From: Tissierella pigra
Lineage (GTDB): Bacteria > Bacillota > Clostridia > Tissierellales > Tissierellaceae
DNA: 64,000 bases
Reading direction: 5' to 3'
NCBI RefSeq assembly: GCF_009695605.1
Contig: NZ_VUNQ01000006.1
Location: 1-64,000, forward strand
Shown here: positions 707 to 15,582 of the stretch, piece by piece
Layout of the letters: each line of letters starts with the position of its first letter
Numbering within the stretch: position 1 is the first letter of the stretch
Notes under the pieces: model-generated
What the model saw: the letters and a program-made list of their open reading frames with translations, nothing else
Database searches by the model: none
Told to the model about the DNA's origin: nothing
Translations under genes and position numbers: made by a program

Positions 707-882
707 TATCATAAATAATTTGAGCAATATCAATGAGCAAACTTTTTTAAATACCCTGTTAGATATATTTTATAACCTACAATACACGGAATGTTCCAAA
801 GTATCTTCATATTTCTCTATTCTTTACTCTCCTAATTAAATCTTCTATTCTTTCCTTAATTCGGTATACCTCAAAACTAGAA

Positions 883-1944
883 TTAGTTATTATTTGGTTT
901 AGCAAACCAATACTTTGTCCTATTGGCAACACTTACAAGAGCCAACATTATAGGTACTTCTGTGAGTACACCTACTACTGTTGCTAAAGCAGCTCCTGAT
1001 TTTAATCCAAATAATGATATTGCTACAGCTACTGCAAGCTCAAAGAAGTTTGATGCACCTATCATACCTGCTGGTGCTGCAACATCAAATGGAAGTTTCC
1101 ATGCTTTTGACCATAAATATGCTATAAAAAATATTAAGAATGTTTGAATTGTCAATGGTACTGCAATTAACAATATATCTAAAGGATTTTCAATAATAGT
1201 TTGACCTTGGAATGAAAATAAAATTATCAATGTTAATAATAATCCAACAATCGTAACACTACTAAATTTAGGTATATACACCTTTTCAAAGTATTCTACA
1301 CCTTTTTTCTTTGTAATAAAGTTCCTTGAGAAAATTCCTGCAATTAAAGGAACTACTACGAATAATACTACAGATAAAAAAAGAGTACCCCAAGGAATTG
1401 TAAATCCACTTATACCTAATAAAAACGCTACTATTGGAACAAATGCTATTAAAATAATAAGATCATTTGTCGCAACTTGTACAAGGGTATAGGCAGGATT
1501 TCCCTTTGTTAAGTGACTCCAAACAAATACCATGGCTGTACATGGAGCTGCTCCCAAAAGCACTGCTCCCGCTAGATAATCTTTAGCTAGATTAGGAGAA
1601 ATCATATTTTTGAATAATATAAAAAAGAAAAAATATGCCAGACCATACATGGTAAATGGCTTAATCAACCAATTTGTAACCCAAGTAACTATAAGTCCTC
1701 TCGGGTTTTCCCTCACTTTCTTTACACTATTAAAGTCAACTTTTAACATCATTGGATATATCATCAGCCATATTAATATTGCTACAGGAACTGATACATT
1801 ATAATACTCAAATTTATTTAAAAATTCGGGAATACCTGGCAGATAGACTCCTATTAACACTCCAATTATCATACATATAGCTACCCATATAGTAAGGTAT
1901 TTTTCAAAGAAACTAATTCCTGGTGATAGTTTCTCCTTTGTCAT
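883..1944 (-). CDS. acr3: Arsenite efflux transporter Acr3
   Basis: Membrane carrier that exports arsenite, last gene of the ars operon. The protein is about 353 residues with ten hydrophobic segments, the usual Acr3 size. The segment AVLLGAAPCTAMVFVWSHL (about residue 130-150) carries the conserved Cys of the Acr3 family (BASS fold), and a second conserved stretch is GMIGASNFFELAVAVAISLFG near residue 305. I chose the second in-frame ATG (1942-1944) because AAAGGTGG sits at the right distance before it; the upstream ATG at 1962 falls in front of that site. It lies 48 bases after arsA. Together with ArsA it may act as an ATP-driven pump, although Acr3 can work alone. Confidence 0.93.
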   Translation of the reverse strand: MTKEKLSPGISFFEKYLTIWVAICMIIGVLIGVYLPGIPEFLNKFEYYNVSVPVAILIWLMIYPMMLKVDFNSVKKVRENPRGLIVTWVTNWLIKPFTMYGLAYFFFFILFKNMISPNLAKDYLAGAVLLGAAPCTAMVFVWSHLTKGNPAYTLVQVATNDLIILIAFVPIVAFLLGISGFTIPWGTLFLSVVLFVVVPLIAGIFSRNFITKKKGVEYFEKVYIPKFSSVTIVGLLLTLIILFSFQGQTIIENPLDILLIAVPLTIQTFLIFFIAYLWSKAWKLPFDVAAPAGMIGASNFFELAVAVAISLFGLKSGAALATVVGVLTEVPIMLALVSVANRTKYWFAKPNNN

Positions 1945-1992
1945 AAATATTCCACCTTTCATTTAAAATTATTTAACTTTGCTAAGTAAGCT

Positions 1993-3738
1993 CTATTTTA
2001 AGAGCTTACTTAGATTTTCTCCCTTTAGTTCCTCTGGGGTCCACTTAACTACTGCAAAGTTTCCTTTAGAGATTTCATTCACCTTATTTATCCATTGTAT
2101 TTCATTACTTGCCTTTGCTTTTAAAATCTCGTTTGTTGTGTCAGTAGCATAAAAACTAGAGTTGATTATCCACCACTTGCTAAATATTTCAGCTCTATTT
2201 AAGTCCTCCTGTAATCTCATAGCTTCAAAGTAAGGAGTTGCTTCAGCTAATGTTATAATTATTACCTCTGTCAAACTATCATTCTTTAGCTTAGGTAACA
2301 GATTTTTAACTGATTCTGGAATATCACCCTGTGTACGTGCTATTTCCTTGTTATAGCTTTGGGTTGATTCCAATAATAATAGAGTATGACCTGTAGGTGC
2401 TGTGTCGATGACCACAACCTCATCTTCTGAGCGCTCTACTATTTCCGCAAATGCTCTAAACACAGCTATCTCTTGGGTACATGGTGATCTTAAATCTTCT
2501 TCTACATAGGCAATATCTTCATCACTCATTGTTTCTCTAGCTTTGCTCAATACTTCTTCTTGGTATTTTTTCAATTCATTTTTTTCATCTATATTACTTA
2601 TAGTAATTCCAAAGCTTTCATCTATTACATAGCCTATATGGGCTGCTGGATCAGTAGTTGTTAGATGCACTTTCTTTCCTCTCTTAGCTAGTTCGCTAGC
2701 AATTGTAGCAGCTATAGTGGTTTTTCCTACGCCACCTTTACCCATTGTAAAAATTACCTTTTTATTTGAATTATATAAATCATCTATAACATTACTTAAA
2801 GTGGGGATTACTTCTGGTTTTAATTCTTCATCTGAATATTTTATATCTCCACTATTAAAAAATGCTCTAATATTTTCAATTCCTGTAATATTATATGGTC
2901 TTAGTGGTATTTCAAATATTTCTAAATTCCTTAGTCCTTCTGGTATATCCCTCAGCACATCTTGTTGCTTATTAAAAATTTCGTTTGAAAGCTCATCATC
3001 ATGCTCTTTTAATACTCCGTTTATTACTAAAAGCTGATTACTTACTCCAATATCCTGTAGCTCCTTTGATGCTCTATCAGCCTCTTTTAGTGCTGATACT
3101 TCAGGTCGAGAAACAAGTACAAGAGTAGTCTTTTCCTTATCTGCTAAGTTTTCTACTGCATTTTTATATATATCCTTTTTTTCCTCTAGCCCTGATAATT
3201 GACCAAGACATGATGCTCCATGAGTGCTTTCGCTTATAAAATTAGTCCAAGCAGATGGTAATTGAAGCATTCTTAGGGTATGACCTGTAGGGGCAGTATC
3301 AAATATTATATGATCATATTCCTCTGTAGCTTTTTTGTCTGTTATAAATCCTGAGAACTCATTAAAGGCAGCTATTTCAACTGTACAGGACCCTGAAAGC
3401 TGTTCCTCCATGTTTTGAATAACAACTTCTGGAAGTTTTCCCCTATATGGTGCTATTACGCTTTCTCTATATTCTGCCGCTGCTTCCTCAGGATCAAAGT
3501 TTGCAACTACTAGGTTTGGTACGTCCTTTATAGGAACTCCTTTGTTGTTAAGCTCTGTGTCAAATACATCCTGTAAATTTGAAGCTGGATCAGTGCTTAT
3601 AAGCATAATCTTCTTGCCTTTATCTGCTAGACTAACAGCTATAGCACAGGCTGTAGAGGTTTTCCCAACTCCACCTTTTCCAGTAAAAAATAAATATTTT
3701 GTTAAATCCATATCTTTTACATTAAAATCCTTGAACAT
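1993..3738 (-). CDS. arsA: Arsenite-stimulated ATPase ArsA (two-domain)
   Basis: Cytoplasmic ATPase that energises arsenite export. At 581 residues it has the duplicated ArsA architecture. The N half has the P-loop GKGGVGKTSTACAIA (about residue 20) and the signature DTAPTGHTLRMLQLP (about 148). The C half repeats both as GKGGVGKTTIAATIA (about 333) and DTAPTGHTLLLLES (about 449). Cys residues for metalloid binding are present (GSCTVEIAAF, SPCTQEIAVF, GASCLGQLSG). AGGAGGAGATAAG precedes the ATG. The gene lies 46 bases after arsD, the usual partner that hands arsenite to ArsA. Confidence 0.95.
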   Translation of the reverse strand: MFKDFNVKDMDLTKYLFFTGKGGVGKTSTACAIAVSLADKGKKIMLISTDPASNLQDVFDTELNNKGVPIKDVPNLVVANFDPEEAAAEYRESVIAPYRGKLPEVVIQNMEEQLSGSCTVEIAAFNEFSGFITDKKATEEYDHIIFDTAPTGHTLRMLQLPSAWTNFISESTHGASCLGQLSGLEEKKDIYKNAVENLADKEKTTLVLVSRPEVSALKEADRASKELQDIGVSNQLLVINGVLKEHDDELSNEIFNKQQDVLRDIPEGLRNLEIFEIPLRPYNITGIENIRAFFNSGDIKYSDEELKPEVIPTLSNVIDDLYNSNKKVIFTMGKGGVGKTTIAATIASELAKRGKKVHLTTTDPAAHIGYVIDESFGITISNIDEKNELKKYQEEVLSKARETMSDEDIAYVEEDLRSPCTQEIAVFRAFAEIVERSEDEVVVIDTAPTGHTLLLLESTQSYNKEIARTQGDIPESVKNLLPKLKNDSLTEVIIITLAEATPYFEAMRLQEDLNRAEIFSKWWIINSSFYATDTTNEILKAKASNEIQWINKVNEISKGNFAVVKWTPEELKGENLSKLLK

Positions 3739-3784
3739 CTTATCTCCTCCTCACCTATATTAATAATATCCACTCTGTATAACA

Positions 3785-4144
3785 TTATTGTTTTTCGTGT
3801 CTAGCCTTTCTAGCACCTAATTCAGACATAATATACTCCTCAGGTATTTCAAGTAAACTTACAAACTCCTCATTAGTTGGATATTCCTTTGTTTTAACCA
3901 CCTCTCCATCAACCATGGTTATAGGCAAAATATCGACTCCGTTGTCAAGCAGCAATTTATTTACAATACTGTTATCCACGTATGATTTTGGGTCACTAGT
4001 TAGATTATGTCTTTCTACTTTTACACCTTTTTTCTCCAATCTATTTAAGAGCGTAGCAACTCTTAATAAATTTTTATCTACAGAGGGTCCACAAACTCCA
4101 GTAGAACAACACATAGCCGGATCAAATATTTCCATTTTCTTCAA
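3785..4144 (-). CDS. arsD: ArsD arsenite metallochaperone / weak repressor
   Basis: Small cytoplasmic protein of 119 residues that transfers arsenite to ArsA and in some systems weakly represses the operon. The family signature is the N-terminal FDPAMCCSTGVCG, giving Cys12, Cys13 and Cys18, the known arsenite-binding set. The start is TTG at 4142-4144, because AGGAGGAG lies 8 bases upstream; the next ATG (residue 4) is too far from that site. It follows arsR by 15 bases and precedes arsA, the canonical arsRDA order. Confidence 0.93.
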   Translation of the reverse strand: MKKMEIFDPAMCCSTGVCGPSVDKNLLRVATLLNRLEKKGVKVERHNLTSDPKSYVDNSIVNKLLLDNGVDILPITMVDGEVVKTKEYPTNEEFVSLLEIPEEYIMSELGARKARHEKQ

Positions 4145-4159
4145 TTGAATCTCCTCCTA

Positions 4160-4483
4160 TTAACATTTACACTCTTTATTATCAATTACTTTACAAATGC
4201 AGTTTTCAGATTCATGAAATACATCATTTAAAAATTTAACTATATTATTACACTTAATCATATCTAATGAATAATAGTTCCAAATCCCATCCTTTCTTAC
4301 CTTAACCAAACCAACATCAGCCAAAACCTTCATATGATGTGAAAGTGTTGGTTGTGTAAAATCAAAATTCTCCAGTATATCACAGGCACATAGTTCACCA
4401 CATGATAATATATCAATTATCTTTAATCTGTTTGAATCAGCAACAGCCTTTAGTATTTTTGCATTTTTATCATAATTATTCAT
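4160..4483 (-). CDS. arsR: ArsR family arsenic-responsive repressor
   Basis: Winged-helix repressor of 107 residues and first gene of the ars operon. ELCACDILENF (Cys32, Cys34, with Cys28 nearby) is the metalloid-binding motif on the recognition-helix region, followed by the DNA-binding helix TQPTLSHHMKVL. The C-terminus is unusually Cys-rich (CICK and CKC), which could add ligands. A TAGGAGGTG ribosome site precedes the ATG; an overlapping upstream ATG (4487) is out of frame and stops at once. The 42-bp palindrome just upstream is its probable operator, so it is autoregulated. Confidence 0.93.
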   Translation of the reverse strand: MNNYDKNAKILKAVADSNRLKIIDILSCGELCACDILENFDFTQPTLSHHMKVLADVGLVKVRKDGIWNYYSLDMIKCNNIVKFLNDVFHESENCICKVIDNKECKC

Positions 4484-4500
4484 TCATCCTTCACCTCCTA

Positions 4501-4551
4501 CATAGATAATCATCTATATATTAATATAGATGATTATCTATGTATTGTCAA
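4501..4551 (-). promoter_or_regulatory. ars promoter with 42-bp palindromic ArsR operator
   Basis: On the minus strand TTGACA (4546-4551) and TATATT (4523-4528) are separated by 17 bases, a good sigma-A promoter. A perfect palindrome overlaps it: a 19-base arm at 4501-4519 and its exact complement at 4524-4542, with four bases between. It covers the -10 box, most of the spacer and the transcription start, and ends 18 bases before the arsR ATG. Position and symmetry make it the likely ArsR operator. Confidence 0.85.
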
Positions 4552-4564
4552 TATAAATAAAAAA

Positions 4565-4768: not shown

Positions 4769-5170
4769 ATGTCAAAAATTAATTTTAAACTTTCTAATAA
4801 CGAAGAACAAATTCTAGAAACATTATGGAGAGAGAATAAATCATTAACACGTTCTGAAATAATAGATTTAACATCCAATAAAACTTGGAAAGAAAGTTCT
4901 ATTCATATTTTATTAAATCAACTTTTAGAAAAAGATGCTATTAAAATAGATGATATTGTAAGAACAGGAAAAAGTTATGGAAGGACTTATAAGCCAACAT
5001 TGACAAAAGACGAATATGAAATAATGCAATTAAAAAACTCTTTCAAAGAATTTAAACCTAGTAAATCAGCATTAACAAATTTCTTTTCGGCTTTAATTGA
5101 ATCTCAAAATATTGAAAATGATACTTTAGAAGAATTAGAAAACTTAATTAAAAAATACAAAGAGGATTGA
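4769..5170 (+). CDS. BlaI/MecI-family repressor
   Basis: Winged-helix repressor of 133 residues, standard for the BlaI/MecI/CopY family. The N-terminal half (NNEEQILETLWRENKSLTRSEI to KSYGRTYKPTLTKDEY) matches the DNA-binding domain and the Tyr-rich wing. The C-terminal 50 residues would form the dimerisation helices. AAAAGGAG precedes the ATG. It is directly followed by an M56 peptidase gene, the usual sensor that triggers cleavage of such repressors. The operon ends in a small secreted peptide rather than a beta-lactamase, so its inducer is unknown. Confidence 0.88.
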   Translation: MSKINFKLSNNEEQILETLWRENKSLTRSEIIDLTSNKTWKESSIHILLNQLLEKDAIKIDDIVRTGKSYGRTYKPTLTKDEYEIMQLKNSFKEFKPSKSALTNFFSALIESQNIENDTLEELENLIKKYKED

Positions 5171-5175
5171 TAAAT

Positions 5176-6237
5176 TTGAAATTTTCTTTTTTTTCTTTAA
5201 TAATGTCTATATGTTTAATAAATATTCTCATATTATTTCTTTCATTATTAAAAAATAAAAACAAATTTATTAAACACTTTAATGTTACTTCCCTAATAGT
5301 TTTTATTATTTTAATTATATTTAGGACTTTATTTAATTTTGAATTTAAAAATTCTATTAATATTAATTCAAAAATTATCCTTCCTAAAATTATTGATTGG
5401 CTGAGAATGCCACTATATGTGGATTCAAATTTAACTCTATTATCATTTTTTTTATTTATTTGGATAATAGGTAGTTGTATTATAAGTTTAAAGACTATAT
5501 TTACATATTATAAATTTAAAATATATTTAAAAAATATATCTAAATTTAGTTACATTCAAGATTTAGAGTTATTAGAAAAAATAAAGCAAGAATTGAATAT
5601 AGACAAAAATATAAATCTATATCGTTCTAATGAAATAACTATTCCAATTGTAGTGGGAATAACTGAATTTAGTATCTACTTACCTAATATAATACTTTCG
5701 GAAAATAAATTAAGAAATATATTGATTCATGAATTAAATCATATAAAAGGTAAGGATAATTTTAAAAAGATAATAATATTATTATTTAAAATATTATTCT
5801 GGTGGAATCCCTTTATTTATCTTTTAAATAAAGATATAGATCATATATTAGAAATTCAATGCGATATTAGAACTGTATCATATATGACAGATAAAGAACG
5901 TATTAAGTATTTAGAAAGCATCCTTGCTATAATAAAAAATACTAAATATATTAATAGTAATGCTTTAATTAATAATTTACAAGTATCTGCTTTATATAAT
6001 GATGATGATAATAAATTAAAACAAAGATTTAATCTAGTTTTAGATCATAATAATAAGCAACAAAATAAAAAATACAATTTAATATTTTGCTTCGTATTTA
6101 TCGCTATTTTTATGTCATCATATATTTTTACATTTAAACCTATATATTATCCGAAGGAAGATTATATTTTTATAGAAGAAGATGATTTTATATATGAAAG
6201 AGATAGTTATATATTAAAAATAAAAAATAAGGAGTGA
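5176..6237 (+). CDS. BlaR1/MecR1-like M56 membrane metallopeptidase
   Basis: Membrane peptidase of about 353 residues with several N-terminal transmembrane segments and the zinc motif HELNHIKGKD (about residue 190), followed by FWWNPFIYLLNKDIDHILEIQCD, the conserved M56 continuation with its third zinc ligand. A further membrane segment near residue 310 is followed by only about 40 acidic residues, so the large penicillin-binding sensor domain of BlaR1 is absent. I chose the TTG at 5176, because AGAGGA (5161-5166) lies 9 bases before it; the TTG at 5167 directly abuts that site. It overlaps or abuts the upstream repressor gene and should be its signal-dependent activator. Confidence 0.85.
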   Translation: MKFSFFSLIMSICLINILILFLSLLKNKNKFIKHFNVTSLIVFIILIIFRTLFNFEFKNSININSKIILPKIIDWLRMPLYVDSNLTLLSFFLFIWIIGSCIISLKTIFTYYKFKIYLKNISKFSYIQDLELLEKIKQELNIDKNINLYRSNEITIPIVVGITEFSIYLPNIILSENKLRNILIHELNHIKGKDNFKKIIILLFKILFWWNPFIYLLNKDIDHILEIQCDIRTVSYMTDKERIKYLESILAIIKNTKYINSNALINNLQVSALYNDDDNKLKQRFNLVLDHNNKQQNKKYNLIFCFVFIAIFMSSYIFTFKPIYYPKEDYIFIEEDDFIYERDSYILKIKNKE

Positions 6238-6241
6238 ATTT

Positions 6242-6487
6242 ATGAAAAAGAAGAAAATACTTTTACTTTTAATTACGATTTTTAGTACACTTATTTTTAG
6301 TAATACTATTTATGCTAGTGAAGGAAGTATTCAAACTCTTATGGAATATTCAAAAGTATTTGATGAGTCTATTGAACCTCAATATGAAAAAGTAAGATGG
6401 TATTATAGGACAGTTAATGGGAAAAAACAAAAGCGTTTATGGTCACTTACTGCTGGTGAGTGGTTAACTGACTGGCAGTGGGTATAA
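6242..6487 (+). CDS. Small secreted Trp/Tyr-rich peptide
   Basis: 81-residue product with a clear signal peptide (KKKK, a hydrophobic stretch, then IYAS/EG) and a predicted mature part of about 56 residues. The mature C-terminus is rich in Trp and Tyr (VRWYYRTVNGKKQKRLWS and GEWLTDWQWV) and ends in Trp-Val. Similar short Trp-rich secreted proteins exist in Firmicutes, but I know no assigned function. A strong site AAGGAGTGA precedes the ATG, and it lies 4 bases after the M56 peptidase gene, so it is the only obvious effector of this BlaI/M56 operon. It could be a secreted antimicrobial, a signal or an envelope-binding peptide. Confidence 0.8.
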   Translation: MKKKKILLLLITIFSTLIFSNTIYASEGSIQTLMEYSKVFDESIEPQYEKVRWYYRTVNGKKQKRLWSLTAGEWLTDWQWV

Positions 6488-6540
6488 GCAGTATATTGAA
6501 ATATTTAAAGTTTAATAGGAATATAAAAATTTGCATTAAT

Positions 6541-6582
6541 ATACCCTAGACTCATATTTAATCAAATATGAATCTAGGGTAT
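6541..6582. terminator. Bidirectional intrinsic terminator
   Basis: A 19-bp stem (6541-6559 with 6564-6582, one mismatch) with a 4-base loop lies between two convergent transcripts: the secreted-peptide operon (+) and the radical-SAM peptide locus (-). U-rich sequence follows on either strand. Confidence 0.85.
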
Positions 6583-6597
6583 ATTTACTTTATCCTT

Positions 6598-6798
6598 CTA
6601 ATAAGCTGTCCTCGTTTCTTCTTTAGCACAATTTTTATTACCATCACGATTCTCTTTACCTATACAAGAAGCTTTACAGCGAATAATTGGATCCCACCAA
6701 CCTTTTGTATCAGCTTGATTATCCAGTTGTCCATTACATATGCATCCTGCATTAGGTGTAATATTACCATTGTTTGAAAAGTCGTCAATAATTCTCAC
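6598..6798 (-). CDS. Cys-rich precursor peptide of a radical-SAM (RiPP) locus
   Basis: A 66-residue peptide starting with GTG (6796-6798) behind AGGGGGG. It has no signal peptide. An acidic/Asn-rich leader-like start (RIIDDFSNNGNITPN) is followed by five Cys (19, 21, 41, 45, 57) in C-x-C, C-x3-C and single arrangements, a GWWDP segment, and a polar, charged tail. It stands at the end of a cluster with a radical SAM/SPASM maturase, so it is the probable substrate, with Cys-derived cross-links (thioether type) the most likely change. It may correspond to the clostridial CLI_3235-type precursors that partner with CcpM maturases; this link is from memory and not verified. It has its own promoter. 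Confidence 0.72.
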   Translation of the reverse strand: MRIIDDFSNNGNITPNAGCICNGQLDNQADTKGWWDPIIRCKASCIGKENRDGNKNCAKEETRTAY

Positions 6799-6827
6799 TT
6801 TTTTCCCCCCTGTTTTAAGTTTAATTT

Positions 6828-6871
6828 ATAATAAGGATATAAATGAGCTAGCATCATTTATCCATTATTAT
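6828..6871. promoter_or_regulatory. 44-bp dyad in the 5' leader of the precursor gene
   Basis: ATAATAAGGATATAAATGA (6828-6846) is nearly complementary to ATCATTTATCCATTATTAT (6853-6871) around GCTAGC. It lies just downstream of the precursor promoter and 30 bases before the gene. It could be a repressor site at the transcription start or a hairpin that protects the peptide mRNA. Confidence 0.6.
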
Positions 6872-6875
6872 CGCT

Positions 6876-6903
6876 ATTATAATTGAACTTATATAGTTGT
6901 AAA
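6876..6903 (-). promoter_or_regulatory. Promoter of the precursor peptide gene
   Basis: On the minus strand TTTACA (6898-6903) and TATAAT (6876-6881) are 16 bases apart. The same boxes and spacing occur in front of the maturase gene (10314-10341), which suggests shared control. Confidence 0.65.
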
Positions 6904-6969
6904 ACTCACCAAATAAAATTTATATATCTATTTGAGTTTTTATCTAAATTATTTTTATTCATTTCCACT

Positions 6970-7686
6970 TCATATAATCAATTTGATTATTTTTAAAACA
7001 ATAAAATGTAATGGATAGATTAAGTAATAGCTATATTTAAAAACTTCTTTTTGTTTTAAAGCCAAGTTTTCTTTATTTGTAAGATTATTATTAAACATTC
7101 CTATTAACAATATTATTATCAGTCCTATTAAAAAATTAGAATATCTAGTTATGTAAATCAAATAACATATTATAAGTTTTATAGCAGGATTATCTCTAAA
7201 AAAGAAAAAATTAAAGGCTAAAATTATAGGAAAAAAACCATAATCTGTTGACAATATATTTGTTAAAATGATTATTAAAGTAAATGAAAATCCAATTAAA
7301 AACAAATTATTTTTAACTGTATCGAATAAATATACCGCAACAAGTGTTAATGCAAGTGTGGCCATTATATTTCCAAAATAAAATCTTTCTTGAGGCATTA
7401 TAGGAAATATTAATCTATACGGAAATTCAGAAATAAGCATAGCTATTACTAAACGAAGAAAATATTTATATATATTCTTGGTATGAATGTATCCTTCAAC
7501 TAGTAAGAAAGTAATTAAAGGCATTGTTATAGTTCCAATAATTTCTGGTAATTTATAATAGTTTTTAATCAAACCACTATACATAGCATGTTGAATAATC
7601 ATACAAATAATCGCTATTGTTTTGAGTTCATTAGAACTTAGTAATTTCTCCCCATTATTATTTACTATTTTATTTTTAATTTTCAT
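6970..7686 (-). CDS. TraX-like polytopic membrane protein
   Basis: A 238-residue membrane protein with about seven hydrophobic segments. It matches the TraX family (named for the F-pilin acetylase) through LKTIAIICMIIQHAM near the start, the middle segment FLLVEGYIHTKNIYKYFLRLVIAMLISEFPYRL, LSTDYGFFPIILAF, and the C-terminal YYLIYPLHFIVLK. TraX-like proteins are common in Firmicutes and most have no known substrate. The ATG at 7686 shares bases with the stop codon of the preceding VanZ-like gene (TGATG), so the two are translationally coupled. In this cluster it might acylate a product or be an immunity or transport factor; this is inference. Confidence 0.75.
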   Translation of the reverse strand: MKIKNKIVNNNGEKLLSSNELKTIAIICMIIQHAMYSGLIKNYYKLPEIIGTITMPLITFLLVEGYIHTKNIYKYFLRLVIAMLISEFPYRLIFPIMPQERFYFGNIMATLALTLVAVYLFDTVKNNLFLIGFSFTLIIILTNILSTDYGFFPIILAFNFFFFRDNPAIKLIICYLIYITRYSNFLIGLIIILLIGMFNNNLTNKENLALKQKEVFKYSYYLIYPLHFIVLKIIKLII

Positions 7687-8705
7687 CAAAATTTATTCAC
7701 CCCATTTTTGTAGAGTTCACTGGATATACATAAAAACTTCAATATATTGTTTTCATCAAAAATAACATTAACTTCAGCTCCAGAACTTATAAGGGTTGCT
7801 AATCTTTCATTAATTTTACAGATATTTTTATCATCTAAATTATCTTTAAATATATCATTTAATCTAGGATGTACATATATTTTATGATGATCATAATCTA
7901 AAACTTGTTTATCAATAATTTTGCTTTCTCCATCAATTTTAAACTTATGAATTTCATCAGAGATATTAACAAATAAGTAATTATCTTTGAATAGAAGGCC
8001 TTTAAGATCTCCTTTAATCTGTTTATTGTCTGTTATACTTTCTAAATATTTTTTGTATGAATCATAAAGATACTTTTCATACGGATCATAAAGTTTTTCT
8101 AATCTTACCTCCTCAATAAAATTTTGCTCAGTTGTACTATTTAGGTCAATAAAAAAAAATTCATATATAATTCTAAATTGAGAAATCAACGTAAAAATGA
8201 AAAAGAAAATGATTAATAATATTCCCTTTTTCAAAAATCTATCTTTTGCTTTGTATACATAGAATCTTGTCACTACATGTCCCAGATATAATCCTATAAA
8301 ATGTAAAAATACCATATCCATTCCTAGTTGGCTGATATGTAATAATGATTTTATAAGTTCATAAAGTATTGATATTATTAAAAATATAATTATAGACTTT
8401 TTCTTAGATATATTTTGTATATTTAAAATACATCCTATGGGGATAAATATAAAGATATTAAATATTATAAGGTATATAATAAATTTTATATTTACTCCAT
8501 AAAAAATTGCATTAGAATATATATTAGATATGTTAAATCGAAAGCTATTATATTTAATAATATTTGGAATATCTTTTATGTAATTTCCTCTTACTATATC
8601 AAATTGAAAAAAGAATATAAGAATTATAAACGCAAGAAAAATCAAACTTAATAGATTTAAAAACTTATTTATATTCTTTATTGAATCGTTACTTTTTAAA
8701 TCCAT
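7686..8705 (-). CDS. VanZ-like membrane protein with C-terminal soluble domain
   Basis: 339 residues. The first 175 form a membrane domain with VanZ features: IFIPIGCILN, then YELIKSLLHISQLGMDMVFLHFIGLYLGH, where family members usually have E..Q and D..D..N..G. A further hydrophobic segment (about 160-180) leads to a soluble, charged domain of about 150 residues of unknown role. VanZ gives low-level teicoplanin resistance in enterococci, so an immunity role for a membrane- or wall-active peptide is possible. The gene lies 26 bases after the radical SAM gene and is coupled to the TraX-like gene. Confidence 0.65.
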   Translation of the reverse strand: MDLKSNDSIKNINKFLNLLSLIFLAFIILIFFFQFDIVRGNYIKDIPNIIKYNSFRFNISNIYSNAIFYGVNIKFIIYLIIFNIFIFIPIGCILNIQNISKKKSIIIFLIISILYELIKSLLHISQLGMDMVFLHFIGLYLGHVVTRFYVYKAKDRFLKKGILLIIFFFIFTLISQFRIIYEFFFIDLNSTTEQNFIEEVRLEKLYDPYEKYLYDSYKKYLESITDNKQIKGDLKGLLFKDNYLFVNISDEIHKFKIDGESKIIDKQVLDYDHHKIYVHPRLNDIFKDNLDDKNICKINERLATLISSGAEVNVIFDENNILKFLCISSELYKNGVNKF

Positions 8706-8731
8706 TCTTTAACCTCTTTCTTTTAGATTTG

Positions 8732-10219
8732 CTATACTATTATTTCATTTACTACTTCCTTCAATGCAGATTTTTTATTTTCTAATAGATTATAATAGTT
8801 TATAAATTTCATTTTTATTTCTTTTTTAGTTTCTTCACACAATCCTTCTTCTTCATCAATTCCATTTTCCCCCATATTTCTTGAATAACAAATATTACAT
8901 AACCCCTGAGCCCAACATTTACTACACTTATCTTCATAATACTCTATATACTCTTTAAAATAATATTTCAAAATATCTTCTATATTAATTCCATCTTTAT
9001 AATTTCCAATAGATGGACAATTTCCAATACGTTCGCAAGGCTTAAATTCACCATCTACTGTTACATAAAGTCTTCTTTGTCCAGGAACACAATTCCCATG
9101 TAAAAATTTTTCTTTAAACACACCTTTATTTAAAACCTCTCTATGTGATACTGATTGTATTGACGTTAAAAGTAAATTAAGATCACTTCTTTTAATAGAA
9201 GATTCATTGTCTTTAATAACAGTATTTGTCACCCAATTTGTTATATTTACTGACTTTAAATTATTCTCTTCTTCTCCATTTATTTTCTTGTTTTCATTAT
9301 AGTCAAAAACCATATCTCCTTCGTCAACATATCCTAGATCAAACTTAACATCATTAGGTAAATTTAGTTCTTTTTCAAAATATTTTTTTATTAGTGTAAT
9401 TTTTTCTTCACTACAGGGAGGTGTAATAACACAATTAATAGATATATTTTTATTTCCATTATTTTTTTCATAAAAATTATCCATCAATAGATTAAACTTT
9501 TCTATTACTATTTCAAATGATCCCTTTCCATTTTTAAACCTTCTAAATCTATTATGTATAGCCATAGGACCATCTATACTACACATAATATTAACACTAA
9601 TGTTATCGCTATGTAGAGTATTGAAATAATTTATCATGTCTAAAGTTAATAAAGTTAAATTTGTTGTAAATGAAACACCTAGATTTATATTTTTATAATT
9701 ATTCCTAACATACTCTATACATTTTTTCATTAAATCAAAATTTGCTAATGGTTCTCCACCATAAAATGTCAAAAAGAATCTATCTCTTTTATAATCTTTT
9801 AAAACAATATCTAATGTTTTTTTTGCAATTTCAAAAGGCATACTTTTATTTCCAAAACTTCTATATTTAGGATGGTGTTCGTTATATATACAATATCCAC
9901 ATCTTAAATTACATTCCTCCGTTAATTCTATAATTATTTGTGTACATTGTCCATTTAAGCTCTTTTCCAACTCTTTAACTGTTGGAATAGAAAAAGGTAT
10001 TCTTTCAGGATATTTAAACAAGTTTTCTTTTTCAATAAATTCTTTAAATGTTTTATTTTCTTTACAAGCCCTTTCTAGTGAAAGTTTATTATTAAGAATT
10101 CTATGAATTAATTTTATTTCTTTTAAATCACAGCCTACTACTTTTCCAGTTCCTGAATCATAAAAATAATTGTTTTTCTTCGAAGTTTCAAATATCATTC
10201 CATATCTTTGGTTTTTCAT
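8732..10219 (-). CDS. Radical SAM/SPASM peptide maturase (CcpM-like)
   Basis: 495-residue enzyme that should install cross-links in the locus peptide using S-adenosylmethionine and iron-sulfur clusters. Cys103, Cys107 and Cys110 (EECNLRCGYCIYN) bind the catalytic [4Fe-4S] cluster, and TFYGGEPLANFDL is the GGE motif for SAM. The C-terminal SPASM domain has eight Cys for auxiliary clusters (377, 395, 401, 432, 435, 441, 444, 461), including GNCVPGQRRLYVTVDGEFKPC and CSKCWAQGLCNIC. The first 90 residues could be the peptide-recognition part. The ATG at 10217-10219 is preferred, since AAAGGAG lies 7 bases upstream; the earlier ATG (10240) lacks a site. The layout fits the Cys-rich-peptide maturases (CcpM) of clostridia. 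Confidence 0.85.
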   Translation of the reverse strand: MKNQRYGMIFETSKKNNYFYDSGTGKVVGCDLKEIKLIHRILNNKLSLERACKENKTFKEFIEKENLFKYPERIPFSIPTVKELEKSLNGQCTQIIIELTEECNLRCGYCIYNEHHPKYRSFGNKSMPFEIAKKTLDIVLKDYKRDRFFLTFYGGEPLANFDLMKKCIEYVRNNYKNINLGVSFTTNLTLLTLDMINYFNTLHSDNISVNIMCSIDGPMAIHNRFRRFKNGKGSFEIVIEKFNLLMDNFYEKNNGNKNISINCVITPPCSEEKITLIKKYFEKELNLPNDVKFDLGYVDEGDMVFDYNENKKINGEEENNLKSVNITNWVTNTVIKDNESSIKRSDLNLLLTSIQSVSHREVLNKGVFKEKFLHGNCVPGQRRLYVTVDGEFKPCERIGNCPSIGNYKDGINIEDILKYYFKEYIEYYEDKCSKCWAQGLCNICYSRNMGENGIDEEEGLCEETKKEIKMKFINYYNLLENKKSALKEVVNEIIV

Positions 10220-10313
10220 AATATACTCCTTTCCATTCAATATTATCTAAAATCACTTGATTAATATCACCATTTCATTTTGAATATAATAGTATTATTC
10301 TATATATAACTCT

Positions 10314-10472: not shown

Positions 10473-10614
10473 TATTTAACCAGTAATCATCCTAATATAA
10501 CTTTCAGATAATCCTTATAAAAGCATGGGAGTTGACAAAGTAAAGGCCATTGGCTTTAATATAAGATCCTTAAATTCTGTATCCTTAGAGAGATATAAGA
10601 TATAATGCGAAACA

Positions 10615-11853
10615 TTATTTTTCAGCTAGTTTGGTAATTAAGTTAACAGGATTAGCAATTAAAATATTTTTATTATAAACAGAGTCCATTTTAACATCAG
10701 CAGTTTCTTCAACTGAACTCCAAAATAAATCTGGAGTAATTTCAGGGTTAACCTGCAAAGCCATAGCATAAAGTCCTGCAATATATGGTGCTGTCCAGCT
10801 TGCTCCCCCTGATCGCATCCATGTGTAATCATTCTCACCTGCATAGCTAGCAAAGGCACGGGAACCCATTGGGAAGAAAATACGCCCCTCATCCTTCCAT
10901 TCATTCAGATCAGTAGCATAATATGAATTAAGATCGTTCGGATCACCAAGAGGTTCTCTACTAAGTCCACCAAAGCGAAAACCATAATCCACATCAGATG
11001 AGACTGCCATAATAAATACTCCTTCTTCTTTCGCCCTATTCAAAGCTTTTTCATAGTCTGCATAGTTGCTGACACCATAATCTGGACTAGGATTAGCAGA
11101 AATAGAAATTACCTTTATTTTTTCTTTATTCGGTAATTGCTTGTTTATATCCAACAATCTGTGTATACCTTCTGCATTATATCTGTATGTCATATCCCCT
11201 TCTTTACCATTCTCATCATCCCATGAAGCTTCTATAAAATATAACTTTGCACCTGGAGCAACTCCTGTGGTTTTCCCTACTGCGAGGGACGCCACCGCTG
11301 CACCATGCATATGCCACTCTGCATCACTCTTAGGAATATCTTCATAATATATAAGATTATCCCTATATTCGTCGTGTCCTGTAAATAATGTCACATCAAC
11401 AATCCCAATTGATATTCCTCTTCCATCTATTCCTTGAGCATGTAAATCACGTACATTAAGTCCCGGATCTTTCCCTAATTCAATAATCTTATTTGGATCA
11501 AAATTTCCTGGTAATTTTTCTGGCCAAATAGTCTTTGTGTTAAACCGAATATAATATAGTAAATCTTCATACTTGGAAATATCCAACTTACTTATATTAT
11601 AGCTCCCAACATCTATTCTGGTAGTGTTGTCATTTGGGGCTTCAGGAAAAGAATCTAAAGTTCCATGCGTTTCAGGATTAGGCTTTGTAGTCTTATGTAT
11701 ACCTATTTCAATTATTTCACTACTTTCATTGGAAGCAGAATATACATCTATCTTCCCAAGACTTTGCAGGAAGGTTTTGTCGGAACACCCCATTAGCATA
11801 ATTATCAAAACAAACAAAGAAACCATTATTTTTATGGCAGTAATGCGTTTCAT
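10615..11853 (-). CDS. Subtilisin-like (S8) lipoprotein, divergent copy
   Basis: 412-residue lipoprotein (lipobox LMGC, Cys23) with an S8 fold outside the membrane. The triad is readable as Asp153 (GIVDVT), His183 (HMHGAAVASLAVG) and Ser352 (SGGASWTAPYIAGL). The oxyanion-hole Asn, found as GSN in the neighbouring paralogue, appears as Asp287 (AVSSDVDYG), so catalysis may be reduced. Residues 24-140 form a low-complexity linker and a conserved lead-in shared with the paralogue (WPEKLPGNFDP versus WPNKLPEGFDP). It is last in the operon BlaI-BlaR1-S8-S8, 95 bases after the paralogue. The substrate is unknown. Confidence 0.85.
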   Translation of the reverse strand: MKRITAIKIMVSLFVLIIMLMGCSDKTFLQSLGKIDVYSASNESSEIIEIGIHKTTKPNPETHGTLDSFPEAPNDNTTRIDVGSYNISKLDISKYEDLLYYIRFNTKTIWPEKLPGNFDPNKIIELGKDPGLNVRDLHAQGIDGRGISIGIVDVTLFTGHDEYRDNLIYYEDIPKSDAEWHMHGAAVASLAVGKTTGVAPGAKLYFIEASWDDENGKEGDMTYRYNAEGIHRLLDINKQLPNKEKIKVISISANPSPDYGVSNYADYEKALNRAKEEGVFIMAVSSDVDYGFRFGGLSREPLGDPNDLNSYYATDLNEWKDEGRIFFPMGSRAFASYAGENDYTWMRSGGASWTAPYIAGLYAMALQVNPEITPDLFWSSVEETADVKMDSVYNKNILIANPVNLITKLAEK

Positions 11854-11948
11854 ACAGACACCCCTTTCTTAATAATTGAATTTATTGTGTTGCTGTAGCA
11901 AGGCTAACCTAATAGTTGAAGTTTCTTATCTAATAGATTTCACTATTA

Positions 11949-13220
11949 CTATTTTATATTCTCTATCTTTTCAATCAATTTTATTGGATTAACTATTTTA
12001 CCAAGTTTCTCTTGACTATTGTTATCAACAGATATTATATCACTTGCATTAAATGCTTCTCTCCAGAAAGCTTCAGGTGTAATATCAGGATTAACTTGAC
12101 ATGCAAGTGCATATAATCCTGCAATATAAGGTACTGTCCAACTCATACCGCCTTCTTTATAAAAGACATAATCATCAACACCTGTAGGGCTTGCAGTACA
12201 TCTATAATCCATAGGAACTAAAAGTCGGTCATTTTCATATATTTGTTTCTTCCAAAAATCTCCTTTTGTAAACGAATTAATATCATCTGGGCTTTTTAAA
12301 GGGTCACGTCCAAGTCCAAAATATGGATTACTTCCTACATATACAGTATAAATTCCTTCCTCTTTCGCTTTCTTAATTGAGTCAAATACTTGTTCATATC
12401 CATTCATGTTTCCCCCTACTCCTAAAGAAATTGATATAACTCTGATTTTTTCCCCTTTAGGCAGTATTTTATTAATCTCTACAATACGATCAATAGATTT
12501 TGCAAGCCAAGAAAGATCCCATTCAAATCCTCCATTTTCAAAAATTCCATGTGTTTCAGCAATATAATAAAGATCTGCTTCAGGTGCTACTCCAACTGTC
12601 TTACCTACAGCAATAGATGCAACTGCTGGTCCGTGCATTGCTGCAACTTCATCAATACAGTGAATTTCCTCATACAATTTTAATTGCTCTTTATACTCTA
12701 CATGATCCACTAATAAACCTTGGTCAATTATTGCTATACCAATTCCCTTTCCAGTGATTCCTTTTTTATGGAGTTCTCTTATTCCCAATCCAGGGTTTTT
12801 CCCTAATTCCATTATCATCTCAGGATCAAATCCTTCAGGTAATTTATTTGGCCATTGGGTTTTACTGTCAAAATTAGCATTAAGTAAATCGTTCAGCCTT
12901 TCTGATAAATCAAGCTTTGTTAAATCACTGCTCCTCAAATCAATCTGCCACATTTCATCTGAATCCGAATTATAAATTGGTAACTCTTTCATTTTTCCAG
13001 GATTAATAAAAGAATAATCTGCCGCACTAGGTTTTCTCACAATGGTCAACTGATTTTCTGGCGATAGCAACGTCCTATATTCCTCTGACTCTTCTAGAGT
13101 TTCCAATATTTCATCTGGTTGTTCTGGTATTTCTGATATTTCTGTTTGTGTTGTTTTAGCTGGAGCACATCCTGCCAGTAAAATTGATATTGCTATAAAT
13201 AAACAAATAAATCTTTTCAT
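11949..13220 (-). CDS. Subtilisin-like (S8) lipoprotein
   Basis: 423-residue lipoprotein (LLAGC, Cys18), followed by an acidic linker (about 25-50) and an S8 protease domain from about residue 130. Catalytic positions are Asp166 (AIIDQG), His196 (AMHGPAVASIAVG) and Ser360 (GGMSWTVPYIAGLYAL); the oxyanion Asn298 (VGSNPYFG) is kept. The motifs are non-standard: MHGPAVAS in place of HGTHVAG, and GMSWTVP in place of GTSMA(A/S)P. It starts 21 bases after the BlaR1-type gene, so it is probably induced through that sensor. It is homologous to the next gene and likely arose by tandem duplication. Confidence 0.87.
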   Translation of the reverse strand: MKRFICLFIAISILLAGCAPAKTTQTEISEIPEQPDEILETLEESEEYRTLLSPENQLTIVRKPSAADYSFINPGKMKELPIYNSDSDEMWQIDLRSSDLTKLDLSERLNDLLNANFDSKTQWPNKLPEGFDPEMIMELGKNPGLGIRELHKKGITGKGIGIAIIDQGLLVDHVEYKEQLKLYEEIHCIDEVAAMHGPAVASIAVGKTVGVAPEADLYYIAETHGIFENGGFEWDLSWLAKSIDRIVEINKILPKGEKIRVISISLGVGGNMNGYEQVFDSIKKAKEEGIYTVYVGSNPYFGLGRDPLKSPDDINSFTKGDFWKKQIYENDRLLVPMDYRCTASPTGVDDYVFYKEGGMSWTVPYIAGLYALACQVNPDITPEAFWREAFNASDIISVDNNSQEKLGKIVNPIKLIEKIENIK

Positions 13221-13241
13221 CTTAATTTTCCTCCCCTGTTA

Positions 13242-14981
13242 TCAATTTAAATCCGATAAAATAACTCCATGACTTTTAAGATTACCAAGTTCATCAATTG
13301 TAATCATAAAATCTGCCCATTCACTATATATGGGATTTGGAGAAAATTTATATAGTGTCCCTACATTATTCTGCCAAGAGTCACTATAATCCCCTAATTT
13401 TGAAAACAACTTATTTACTATTGCTGGATTTTTCTCGTATTCCTTTTCTTCAATTCCTAAACTAGAAAAAAAATCCGAATATCCATATACGATAATCACA
13501 TTATTACCGCCCATACTTTGCCAAAAACTATTATCAATTTTAGGAGTAATATTTAAACTTTCCATATCAATTCCAACTACGGACAAGTCACCATATTGTT
13601 CTTCAATTTCACTTCTTTTATAAATATAAGAAATGGGTGCTTTTTCATTTTTAATAGCTGAATTGGCAGGCTTATCAATATAAGAAATCGTTATATTTTC
13701 TAAATCAACTATGTTAGAAAATAGATATAAAGCATTTTTGTTTATTCTTTTCACATGGTCATCCTTAAGACCTGAGACACTATCACTTCTGGAAAATTCA
13801 TATCCCAAATACAGACTTCGTCCTACATCATCCAGATCTTTTCTATTTCCTCTATTGTCAATTATAATAGTATTGATTTTATAATTGTCATTGGGATTTT
13901 CAAGTGAGGTTAAAAGCTGATAAACTTCATATATATTCCCAAGAGAAATAGATTCAGTCAATCCCTCGATTATATTTGAATTCTCCGCTCTTACATTTAT
14001 ATTGATAAATGAGACTGCACCAAAAGAGATACAAATTATGGCTACAATAAGAGCAATATTAGATTTTTGTGGAGGCTTGAGTATCATTTCAATACGATTT
14101 TTCATTTTTCTGCCTCCTGTTGACATAGCAGCAACTATTTGATTGCCACTGTCAGCTATGGATAGAAGCGTAGTACAATAATTGAGATGTTCACTTGAGC
14201 CTATTTTTTCAATAACTCTGCTGTCGCAAGATAGTTCAGCGTCATTCCTTGACACCTTTACGGATAGCCAGATGAGGGGATTGAACCAATATAAAGCACA
14301 AAGAATATTTCCCAGTAGACGAATAAAGTTGTCCCTTTGCCTGTAATGAACCATTTCATGTATAAGTGCAAATTTAATTGCTTTAGTATCATGAATGATA
14401 TTTTCTGTTAGAATGATACTTGGATTAAATATTCCAATTAGACAAGGAGATTTTAGATTTTGAGAAATATATACTGGAATATTATGTTTCAATCCTGCCA
14501 TCTCAGCAACTTCATCATAATCATGAAAATCATAGAATGTCGCACTCTTCAGAATTTTCCTTTGAAAAAAAACATTGCGTATCCCAAAAACAGCTAATAT
14601 ATAAATAACTCCTAAAATCCATACTATAGATAAAATATCAAATAAACCATCATAATTATCCCCTGATCCATTATTCCATATTCGTGTATAACTGGTAGTA
14701 TCTTCATTAACTAAATGTTGATATATATTACTCTCATATAAATCCAAATCATTATCGAGTCTAAAGTCTAAAGCTTGAATTTGCGGAAAAATATTCTTGA
14801 CTTCAATCTCCCATTGAAGATTTAAAGGAATAATCAATCTTAATGCAATGATCATCCATAAAGCATATTGTATTCTTGGATTTATCTTATCTTTAAAAAT
14901 AAATCGAAGCATAAAAATAAGTAGTATCAACAAAGATGCAAGGATTGAATTATGTATTAAGAAGTTCAAAACTTCATTCAT
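13242..14981 (-). CDS. BlaR1-like M56 sensor peptidase
   Basis: 579-residue membrane metallopeptidase. Transmembrane segments are near residues 5-25, 32-52 and 115-135. The zinc motif is HEMVHYRQRD (about 227), followed by ALYWFNPLIWLSVKVSRNDAELSCDSRVI, typical of BlaR1/MecR1. After a segment near residue 320, about 250 residues lie outside the cell and probably form the sensor; they do not show the penicillin-binding STYK pattern, so the signal is probably not a beta-lactam. The ATG at 14981 is chosen since AAAGGAGG lies just upstream; it overlaps the end of the BlaI-type gene by 8 bases. Confidence 0.87.
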   Translation of the reverse strand: MNEVLNFLIHNSILASLLILLIFMLRFIFKDKINPRIQYALWMIIALRLIIPLNLQWEIEVKNIFPQIQALDFRLDNDLDLYESNIYQHLVNEDTTSYTRIWNNGSGDNYDGLFDILSIVWILGVIYILAVFGIRNVFFQRKILKSATFYDFHDYDEVAEMAGLKHNIPVYISQNLKSPCLIGIFNPSIILTENIIHDTKAIKFALIHEMVHYRQRDNFIRLLGNILCALYWFNPLIWLSVKVSRNDAELSCDSRVIEKIGSSEHLNYCTTLLSIADSGNQIVAAMSTGGRKMKNRIEMILKPPQKSNIALIVAIICISFGAVSFININVRAENSNIIEGLTESISLGNIYEVYQLLTSLENPNDNYKINTIIIDNRGNRKDLDDVGRSLYLGYEFSRSDSVSGLKDDHVKRINKNALYLFSNIVDLENITISYIDKPANSAIKNEKAPISYIYKRSEIEEQYGDLSVVGIDMESLNITPKIDNSFWQSMGGNNVIIVYGYSDFFSSLGIEEKEYEKNPAIVNKLFSKLGDYSDSWQNNVGTLYKFSPNPIYSEWADFMITIDELGNLKSHGVILSDLN

Positions 14982-15375
14982 TTTGATCCTCCTTTTCAAT
15001 TAACGCCTTTTTAAGAGATTGTAACATGGAATTAATTTCGTCTTTTGTAATATCCTCACTATCTACTAATGAGGAAACAAGTAACCCCATTTTTCCATGA
15101 AATATTTTTTCTACAAATGAACGTGTTTCCTGTAATACGGTTTCATCTTTATTTAGCAAAGGGTAATAAAGTCTTGCAGGGTTTGCCTCTTCCATACGAA
15201 TATAGTTCTTTTTCTGCATACGTTTTAGAAATGAAATAATTGTATGTCTTGACCAACCTGTTTCCTCCTTTAAATCATCTTCCATCTGTCTACAGGTTAA
15301 AGGATTTTTCTCCCATAAAAGCATCATTATTTTCCATTCTGTATCTGTAAGTTTTGTTTTTTCTCTGTTATCCAA
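14974..15375 (-). CDS. BlaI/MecI-family repressor (second copy)
   Basis: 133-residue winged-helix repressor. It shows the family start LTDTEWKIMMLLWEKNPLTCRQMEDDL, the recognition helix WSRHTIISFLKRMQKKNYI, and the wing ARLYYPLLNKDE; the C-terminal helices serve in dimerisation. The start is TTG (15373-15375) with GGAGGTGATAAA before it. It heads the operon with the M56 sensor and two S8 lipoproteins. Two copies of a 16-bp palindrome flank its promoter and are its probable operators. Sensor-triggered cleavage of the repressor should derepress the whole operon. Confidence 0.9.
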   Translation of the reverse strand: MDNREKTKLTDTEWKIMMLLWEKNPLTCRQMEDDLKEETGWSRHTIISFLKRMQKKNYIRMEEANPARLYYPLLNKDETVLQETRSFVEKIFHGKMGLLVSSLVDSEDITKDEINSMLQSLKKALIEKEDQNE

Positions 15376-15390
15376 TTTATCACCTCCATA

Positions 15391-15465
15391 GTAATCAATT
15401 GCCTACTCATATCATAATATATAAATTTCAATATTGTCAACTATTATTTGTAGGCATCTGCCTAC
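15391..15465 (-). promoter_or_regulatory. Promoter with two BlaI-type operators
   Basis: On the minus strand TTGACA (15435-15440) and TATGAT (15411-15416) are 18 bases apart. A perfect 16-bp palindrome, GTAGGCATCTGCCTAC, lies at 15450-15465 (arms of seven), just upstream of -35. A second copy, GTAATCAATTGCCTAC at 15391-15406, matches 12 of 16 positions and covers the start of transcription. The pair is well placed for repression by the BlaI-type protein of this operon. Confidence 0.8.
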
Positions 15466-15582
15466 TTTAATTAGCAAATCAAAATTTGGGCGAAAAATTC
15501 TCTTAGTCGATTACAGAAATATAATTAAAATTCCTAAATGCAACTAATACATTTGTTATCCTATGAAACTTATAATAGTAAA

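Follow-up and report, generated by a model that had tools for sequence, protein, structure and literature searches.

How would a bacterium deliver a thioether-bridged peptide whose operon holds no working exporter gene? The question is raised by a small operon of Tissierella pigra in the stretch of 64,000 nucleotides analysed here (contig NZ_VUNQ01000006.1, positions 1 to 64,000; hereafter the window). The earlier note, made from the sequence alone, had described it as a radical-SAM peptide locus in which a five-cysteine precursor is accompanied by a radical SAM/SPASM enzyme, a VanZ-like and a TraX-like protein, without the peptidase-containing ATP-binding cassette (ABC) exporter that it took to be the norm. 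It had considered a membrane-retained, acylated or lysis-released product. An intact version of the cluster is found in G590, a genome of a different family in the same order. We propose, with a probability of roughly 0.78, that the locus is an operon for a sactipeptide resembling ruminococcin C (RumC) and that its own exporter gene has been deleted in the window genome. The elements, in the order of transcription and with a gap between the TraX-like gene and the precursor, are the following (aa, amino acids):

8732 to 10219, minus strand: radical SAM/SPASM maturase, RumMC-like; 495 aa from the ATG at 10219, 502 aa from an in-frame TTG at 10240
7686 to 8705, minus strand: VanZ-like membrane protein (tentative assignment), 339 aa, with a C-terminal soluble domain; PF04892 at 22 bits in the G590 ortholog; H3/H4 motif residues altered
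6970 to 7686 (alternative start TTG 7689), minus strand: TraX-like membrane protein, PF05857 at 87 bits; its start codon overlaps the VanZ-like stop (TGATG)
6855 to 6962, minus strand: ABC exporter gene relic, comprising some 28 codons of the N-terminus, interrupted by an in-frame TGA (6906-6908), and a few bases from the 3' end
6799 to 6813, minus strand: precursor ribosome-binding site AGGGGGGAAAAAA, identical in G590
6598 to 6798, minus strand: putative sactipeptide precursor, 66 aa, GTG start, cysteines 19, 21, 41, 45 and 57, recognised by a profile and by its relatives

The gap carries the evidence on the exporter. In G590 the same four genes, for which the earlier note had suggested looking in other genomes, are present at 83% DNA identity together with a gene for a 593-aa ABC exporter (L038:12386-14167), which separates the TraX-like gene from the precursor. 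When the two DNA sequences are aligned, the match to the window breaks off at L038 position 12471 and resumes at 14156, so that L038 12472-14155 has no counterpart and about 1.68 kb is lost. What is left reads MNKNNLDKNSNRYINFIW*VLQLYKFNYN against the exporter N-terminus MSKNDLNKKANIFKNFIWSVLQLYSFDYKYV. This corresponds to the beginning of the exporter gene, interrupted by a nonsense codon, and then to its final bases; the relic also carries substitutions of its own. The earlier note was right that the locus holds no full exporter, and had overlooked the relic at ~6962-6855. No close copy of the exporter was found elsewhere in the genome, the nearest (C44:34051 and C30:7829) being 36-38% identical. 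From this comparison, the missing exporter would be explained by a deletion rather than by a new mode of peptide delivery. Because the 5' end of the gene and its nonsense codon remain and an intact version exists in G590, there is no need to invoke a membrane-retained or lysis-released peptide.

The absence of a peptidase domain is itself not unusual. An ABC exporter of 541-612 aa is present at all 14 of the related loci with a recognisable precursor; proteins of this size would be too short for a fused peptidase, and Pfam detected no peptidase domain in the G590 exporter. A separate or external protease would therefore be normal for the family, as it is for RumC, whose leader is removed by external trypsin (PMC6779426) and for which the bridge pattern, trypsin activation and putative exporters have been described (PMC6779426, PMC8188230). 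The expectation of a peptidase-containing exporter as the norm thus does not hold for this family.

The precursor frame (GTG start, 66 codons, a strong ribosome-binding site upstream, AGGGGGGAAAAAAGTG) is found just as first described, with its five cysteines, at 6598-6798 of the minus strand. The frame is not a product of chance and is conserved beside homologous maturases, since it is 74% identical to a 65-aa counterpart in G590, with a ratio of nonsynonymous to synonymous substitution rates (dN/dS) of 0.38 (maturase 0.18, both membrane proteins 0.25), and since relatives adjoin maturases and a profile recognises it well above shuffled sequence. The 66-residue query matched in five genomes of the order (the window genome, G590, G446, G423 and G427), and in the clusters of G590, G446 and G423 the precursor is accompanied by a homologous maturase. 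When more distant maturase loci are included, the clusters at 14 loci encode a peptide of ~59-84 aa with CxC...CxxxC, two pairs among these loci being nearly identical. A profile of 11 related precursors, from which the window, G590 and RumC1 peptides were left out, scored these three at 45.2, 47.7 and 15.2 bits, respectively, compared to a best of 500 shuffles of 12.1 bits for the window peptide and 11.1 bits for RumC1. By sequence, conservation of precursor and maturase spans the order and the class. The 66-residue frame is likely to be the maturase substrate, and no alternative conserved peptide was seen in this role. The secreted 81-aa protein encoded at 6242-6487 was considered and rejected, as its gene neighbours a BlaR1-like gene on the opposite strand and is missing from the G590 cluster. 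A whole-genome search by cysteine-motif pattern was too unspecific.

What kind of product would this peptide give? The mature part of the RumC1 sequence used here was confirmed by a match to the solved structure 6t33 over its full length, and its cysteine and acceptor positions agree with those published, in which Cys 22, 24, 41 and 45 are bonded to residues 35, 31, 61 and 53 (PMC6779426). The four RumC cysteine columns are invariant in the precursor alignment, falling at Cys 19, 21, 41 and 45 in the window peptide, in which Asn54 and Asn56 are also the same as in RumC1; Cys57 is common only to the window and G590 among the aligned precursors. RumMC2 tolerated changed acceptor residues in engineered peptides, glycine at position 61 included (PMC8188230). 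The maturase, described in the earlier note as CcpM-like, scores best with the RumMC model NF035951 (381 bits, cut-off 720) against 237 bits for CcpM (TIGR04068, cut-off 500), and the genome has CcpM-type enzymes at other loci. Its cysteine motifs are CX3CX2C and, in the SPASM domain, C-12-G-4-C-36-C-2-C-5-C-2-C-16-C, a spacing that follows the published RumMC motif, CX13GX4CX36CX2CX5CX2CX18C (PMC6779426), with only small length differences. Since the precursor and ruminococcin C1 have the CxC...CxxxC cysteines in common, the product is best read as a double-hairpin sactipeptide.

Among known systems, ruminococcin C (RumC1-5 with RumMC1/2, Ruminococcus gnavus) is the closest in the layout of its small precursor, in the nearly matching cysteine spacing of its maturase and in the ABC exporter of the intact G590 cluster. 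Unlike it, the window has a single precursor gene, last in the operon, a fifth cysteine, the VanZ-like and TraX-like partners, a deleted exporter and a leader without Lys or Arg beyond residue 3, and the precursor reaches 10.4 bits with the RumC model NF035950 (cut-off 40). The putative sactipeptides of the Apre_1838/CLOSPO_01332 type (TIGR04067) and the CA_C0660 family (NF035954) belong to the same precursor superfamily, a profile of such precursors recognising the window peptide, and they occur in the same order with the same type of maturase and exporter. However, the window precursor scores 19.2 bits with TIGR04067 (cut-off 45), the second half of the peptide is mostly CxCxC in these relatives and CxxxC here, and they lack the VanZ-like/TraX-like pair. 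CcpM-type systems also have a radical SAM/SPASM maturase of a cysteine-rich peptide. With the CcpM model, by which the window enzyme scores 237 bits, the same genome has a true CcpM with a TIGR04066 partner on contig C94 (565 bits), while an enzyme on C31 comes near the cut-off (458 bits). These two loci (L036:1430-5383 on C94 and L037:6855-9928 on C31) are further cysteine-rich-peptide systems with a CcpM-type maturase and a TIGR04066 partner, the C31 locus also encoding an acyl-carrier-related protein and a 64-aa peptide that contains CACSRHPCHC and for which NCBIfam has no matching model. In another genome (G538), very Cys/Gly-rich repetitive peptides with GCGCGC repeats (L042:699-935 and 6986-7213) flank a RumMC-like maturase. 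Maturase scans gave one distant locus only in genome_contigs, none in viral_contigs and distant maturases only in plasmid and phage records.

Several points weigh against the reading of a RumC-like operon with a deleted exporter. Both precursor and maturase score under every curated family cut-off, for which reason we would file the cluster by sequence as a divergent RumC relative and not as a member of the RumC family. The genome is a draft of 122 contigs, though the deletion sits inside a contig of 107 kb. The maturase, precursor, VanZ-like and TraX-like genes are all open, and relative-rate tests against their G590 counterparts gave no significant acceleration in the window genes; either the deletion would therefore be recent, or the rest of the operon is still useful. 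The locus could therefore still be in use with an exporter acting in trans.

This last possibility, in which the peptide leaves the cell through a different ABC exporter of the genome and loses its leader to a different protease, is unlikely in our view, and is the alternative that survives best. The remaining genes are intact and constrained, and the genome holds many ABC transporters, the two nearest being about as distant from the lost one (36-38% identity) as exporters of different related clusters are from each other. Of these two, however, one clusters with a thiopeptide-type protein among thiopeptide/lanthipeptide-type genes, thus in another locus for ribosomally synthesised and post-translationally modified peptides (RiPPs), and the other stands alone, while every related cluster with a precursor retains its own exporter. 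In addition, from residue 4 up to its first cysteine the window leader has no Lys or Arg, the only case of this among 13 precursors plus RumC1; R10 of the G590 leader is N10 here. This would be a second sign of loss, which we treat as supporting evidence only, because chance loss of such a residue is not very rare.

The two membrane proteins invite a different explanation, namely that the TraX-like protein acylates (acetylates) the peptide, or that the pair anchors it, giving a membrane-bound or acylated sactipeptide. Both proteins are in the operon as the earlier note had stated, the TraX-like one being secure by PF05857 (87 bits, cut-off 25) and the VanZ assignment of the other being weak: the window protein has no Pfam hit and its G590 ortholog reaches 22.3 bits with PF04892 (cut-off 30.1), though the protein aligns with clear VanZ proteins over the VanZ core. 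Acetylation of pilin depends on TraX of F, a borderline case among the transmembrane acyltransferases (PMC12423673), and the TraX-like protein retains the Lys and His of transmembrane helix 1 (K23, H34) as well as E65, Y222, Y225 and H228. Two near-invariant positions are altered, however, Q33 and T53 (also in G590) replacing an Asp and an Arg found in 20 of 21 relatives. The conserved H2-H4 residues of VanZ proteins, with Asn in H2, ExxQ in H3 and DxDDxxxN in H4 as the VanZ-1 motifs, are predicted to mediate an action on lipid head groups (PMC12419801). The VanZ-like protein keeps the H2 Asn, has ExxK in place of ExxQ in both genomes, and in place of the DxDDxxLN of VanZ relatives the two genomes have GMDMVFLH or GIDMVFLH, the former in the window. 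These changes, both in the VanZ-like and the TraX-like protein, are common to the two clusters and therefore predate the deletion, which suggests altered function rather than decay. Structure prediction for the VanZ-like protein was of low confidence, with a mean predicted local distance difference test score (pLDDT) of 48.9 for the protein and 42.2 for the soluble domain alone.

The distribution of the pair also argues against peptide acylation. The two genes stand in a sactipeptide-cluster arrangement only in the window and G590 and are missing from all other related clusters examined; among 249 genomes of the order a close VanZ-like relative was found only in G590, and no relative of either protein was found among plasmids at the limits used. 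A TraX-like gene does lie within a lanthipeptide-like cluster in G283 (L124:3672-14322, which also encodes LanC-like and ABC proteins and, at ~330 aa each, three membrane proteins similar to one another), the sole such case, which came from among the best TraX hits. By the references used, RiPP enzymes were found at 0 of 60 further TraX loci sampled, and we rejected TraX as a general marker of RiPP clusters. Separately, in G466 (L077:7226-8877) a VanZ protein with a soluble domain and a TraX protein are encoded in overlapping tandem, with no RiPP genes nearby. We regard an acylated or anchored product as improbable. A more elaborate version, in which a RumC-like sactipeptide receives an acyl group from the pair on the outer side of the membrane, so that G590 would be the source of an acylated sactipeptide and the window a non-exporting descendant retaining the modified peptide with the cell, seems to us a distinctly long shot. 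That the missing exporter reflects an error of the draft assembly is the least credible of all, since the relic's own substitutions and nonsense codon fit a dead gene and not a mis-join, the exporter gene is on no other contig, and genome completeness is given as 100%.

For the VanZ-like/TraX-like pair immunity would in our view be the likeliest role, because a producer of an antimicrobial peptide needs it, the operon has no other candidate, and VanZ lowers the binding of lipoglycopeptide antibiotics in other bacteria (PMC7146870).

The surroundings of the operon bear on how it may have arrived. The flanks of the locus are present in the congener G610, at 95% identity over 835-4558 and 88% over 10602-15483, and the segment between them differs; window 4.6-10.6 kb is therefore a variable segment, consistent with horizontal arrival. 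The G590 copy of the cluster sits in unrelated surroundings. Convergent with the sactipeptide operon, the plus strand at 4769-6487 encodes a BlaI-like regulator, a BlaR1-like M56 peptidase and the secreted 81-aa protein, which ends in KVRWYYRTVNGKKQKRLWSLTAGEWLTDWQWV and had no match among plasmids. Between the two convergent operons lies an inverted repeat (6540-6590, TACCCTAGACTCATATTTAATCAAATATGAATCTAGGGTA), noticed in the sequence and missed by the terminator scan, which is possibly a two-way terminator. On the other side, the minus strand at 10615-15375 encodes another BlaI/BlaR1-like pair and, after it, two subtilase lipoproteins, the region being 88% conserved in G610, which has an additional subtilase-like region at the equivalent place. 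The consensus scan, to which we gave no weight, returned 50 promoter-like sites against 39.4 in shuffles (sd 6.7) and no terminators.

Returning to the RumC-like operon with its deleted exporter, by homology the following scenario can be considered. The maturase would bind the leader and form thioethers from Cys19/Cys21 and Cys41/Cys45 to downstream alpha-carbons, so that two hairpins would arise, as they do in RumC1. Where the cluster is intact, export of the leader-bearing peptide would fall to the ABC protein, and outside the cell a trypsin-like protease would cleave after a leader Lys or Arg. Less certainly, the VanZ-like and TraX-like proteins would protect the producer rather than modify the peptide. 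In the window genome the peptide can probably still be made and cross-linked, without export by its own transporter and without the usual cleavage residue. Because of these two losses, the window locus most likely represents a producer disabled not long ago, which may have retained its immunity; more broadly stated, the window copy is probably either recently disabled or dependent on functions in trans.

The observation of a locus without a full exporter stands, and the novelty proposed for it, a peptide without an export route by design, falls away. For genome mining this carries a caution, as a RiPP locus that seems to have no exporter may have lost it by a deletion that can still be read in the sequence. 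With this cluster the RumC-like sactipeptides gain a divergent branch that has an extra cysteine and two membrane partners unseen in the other clusters examined. For expression, the intact cluster of G590 should be chosen over the window copy. Should the membrane pair provide immunity, a strain that has lost export and kept the pair would be a natural former producer retaining its resistance.

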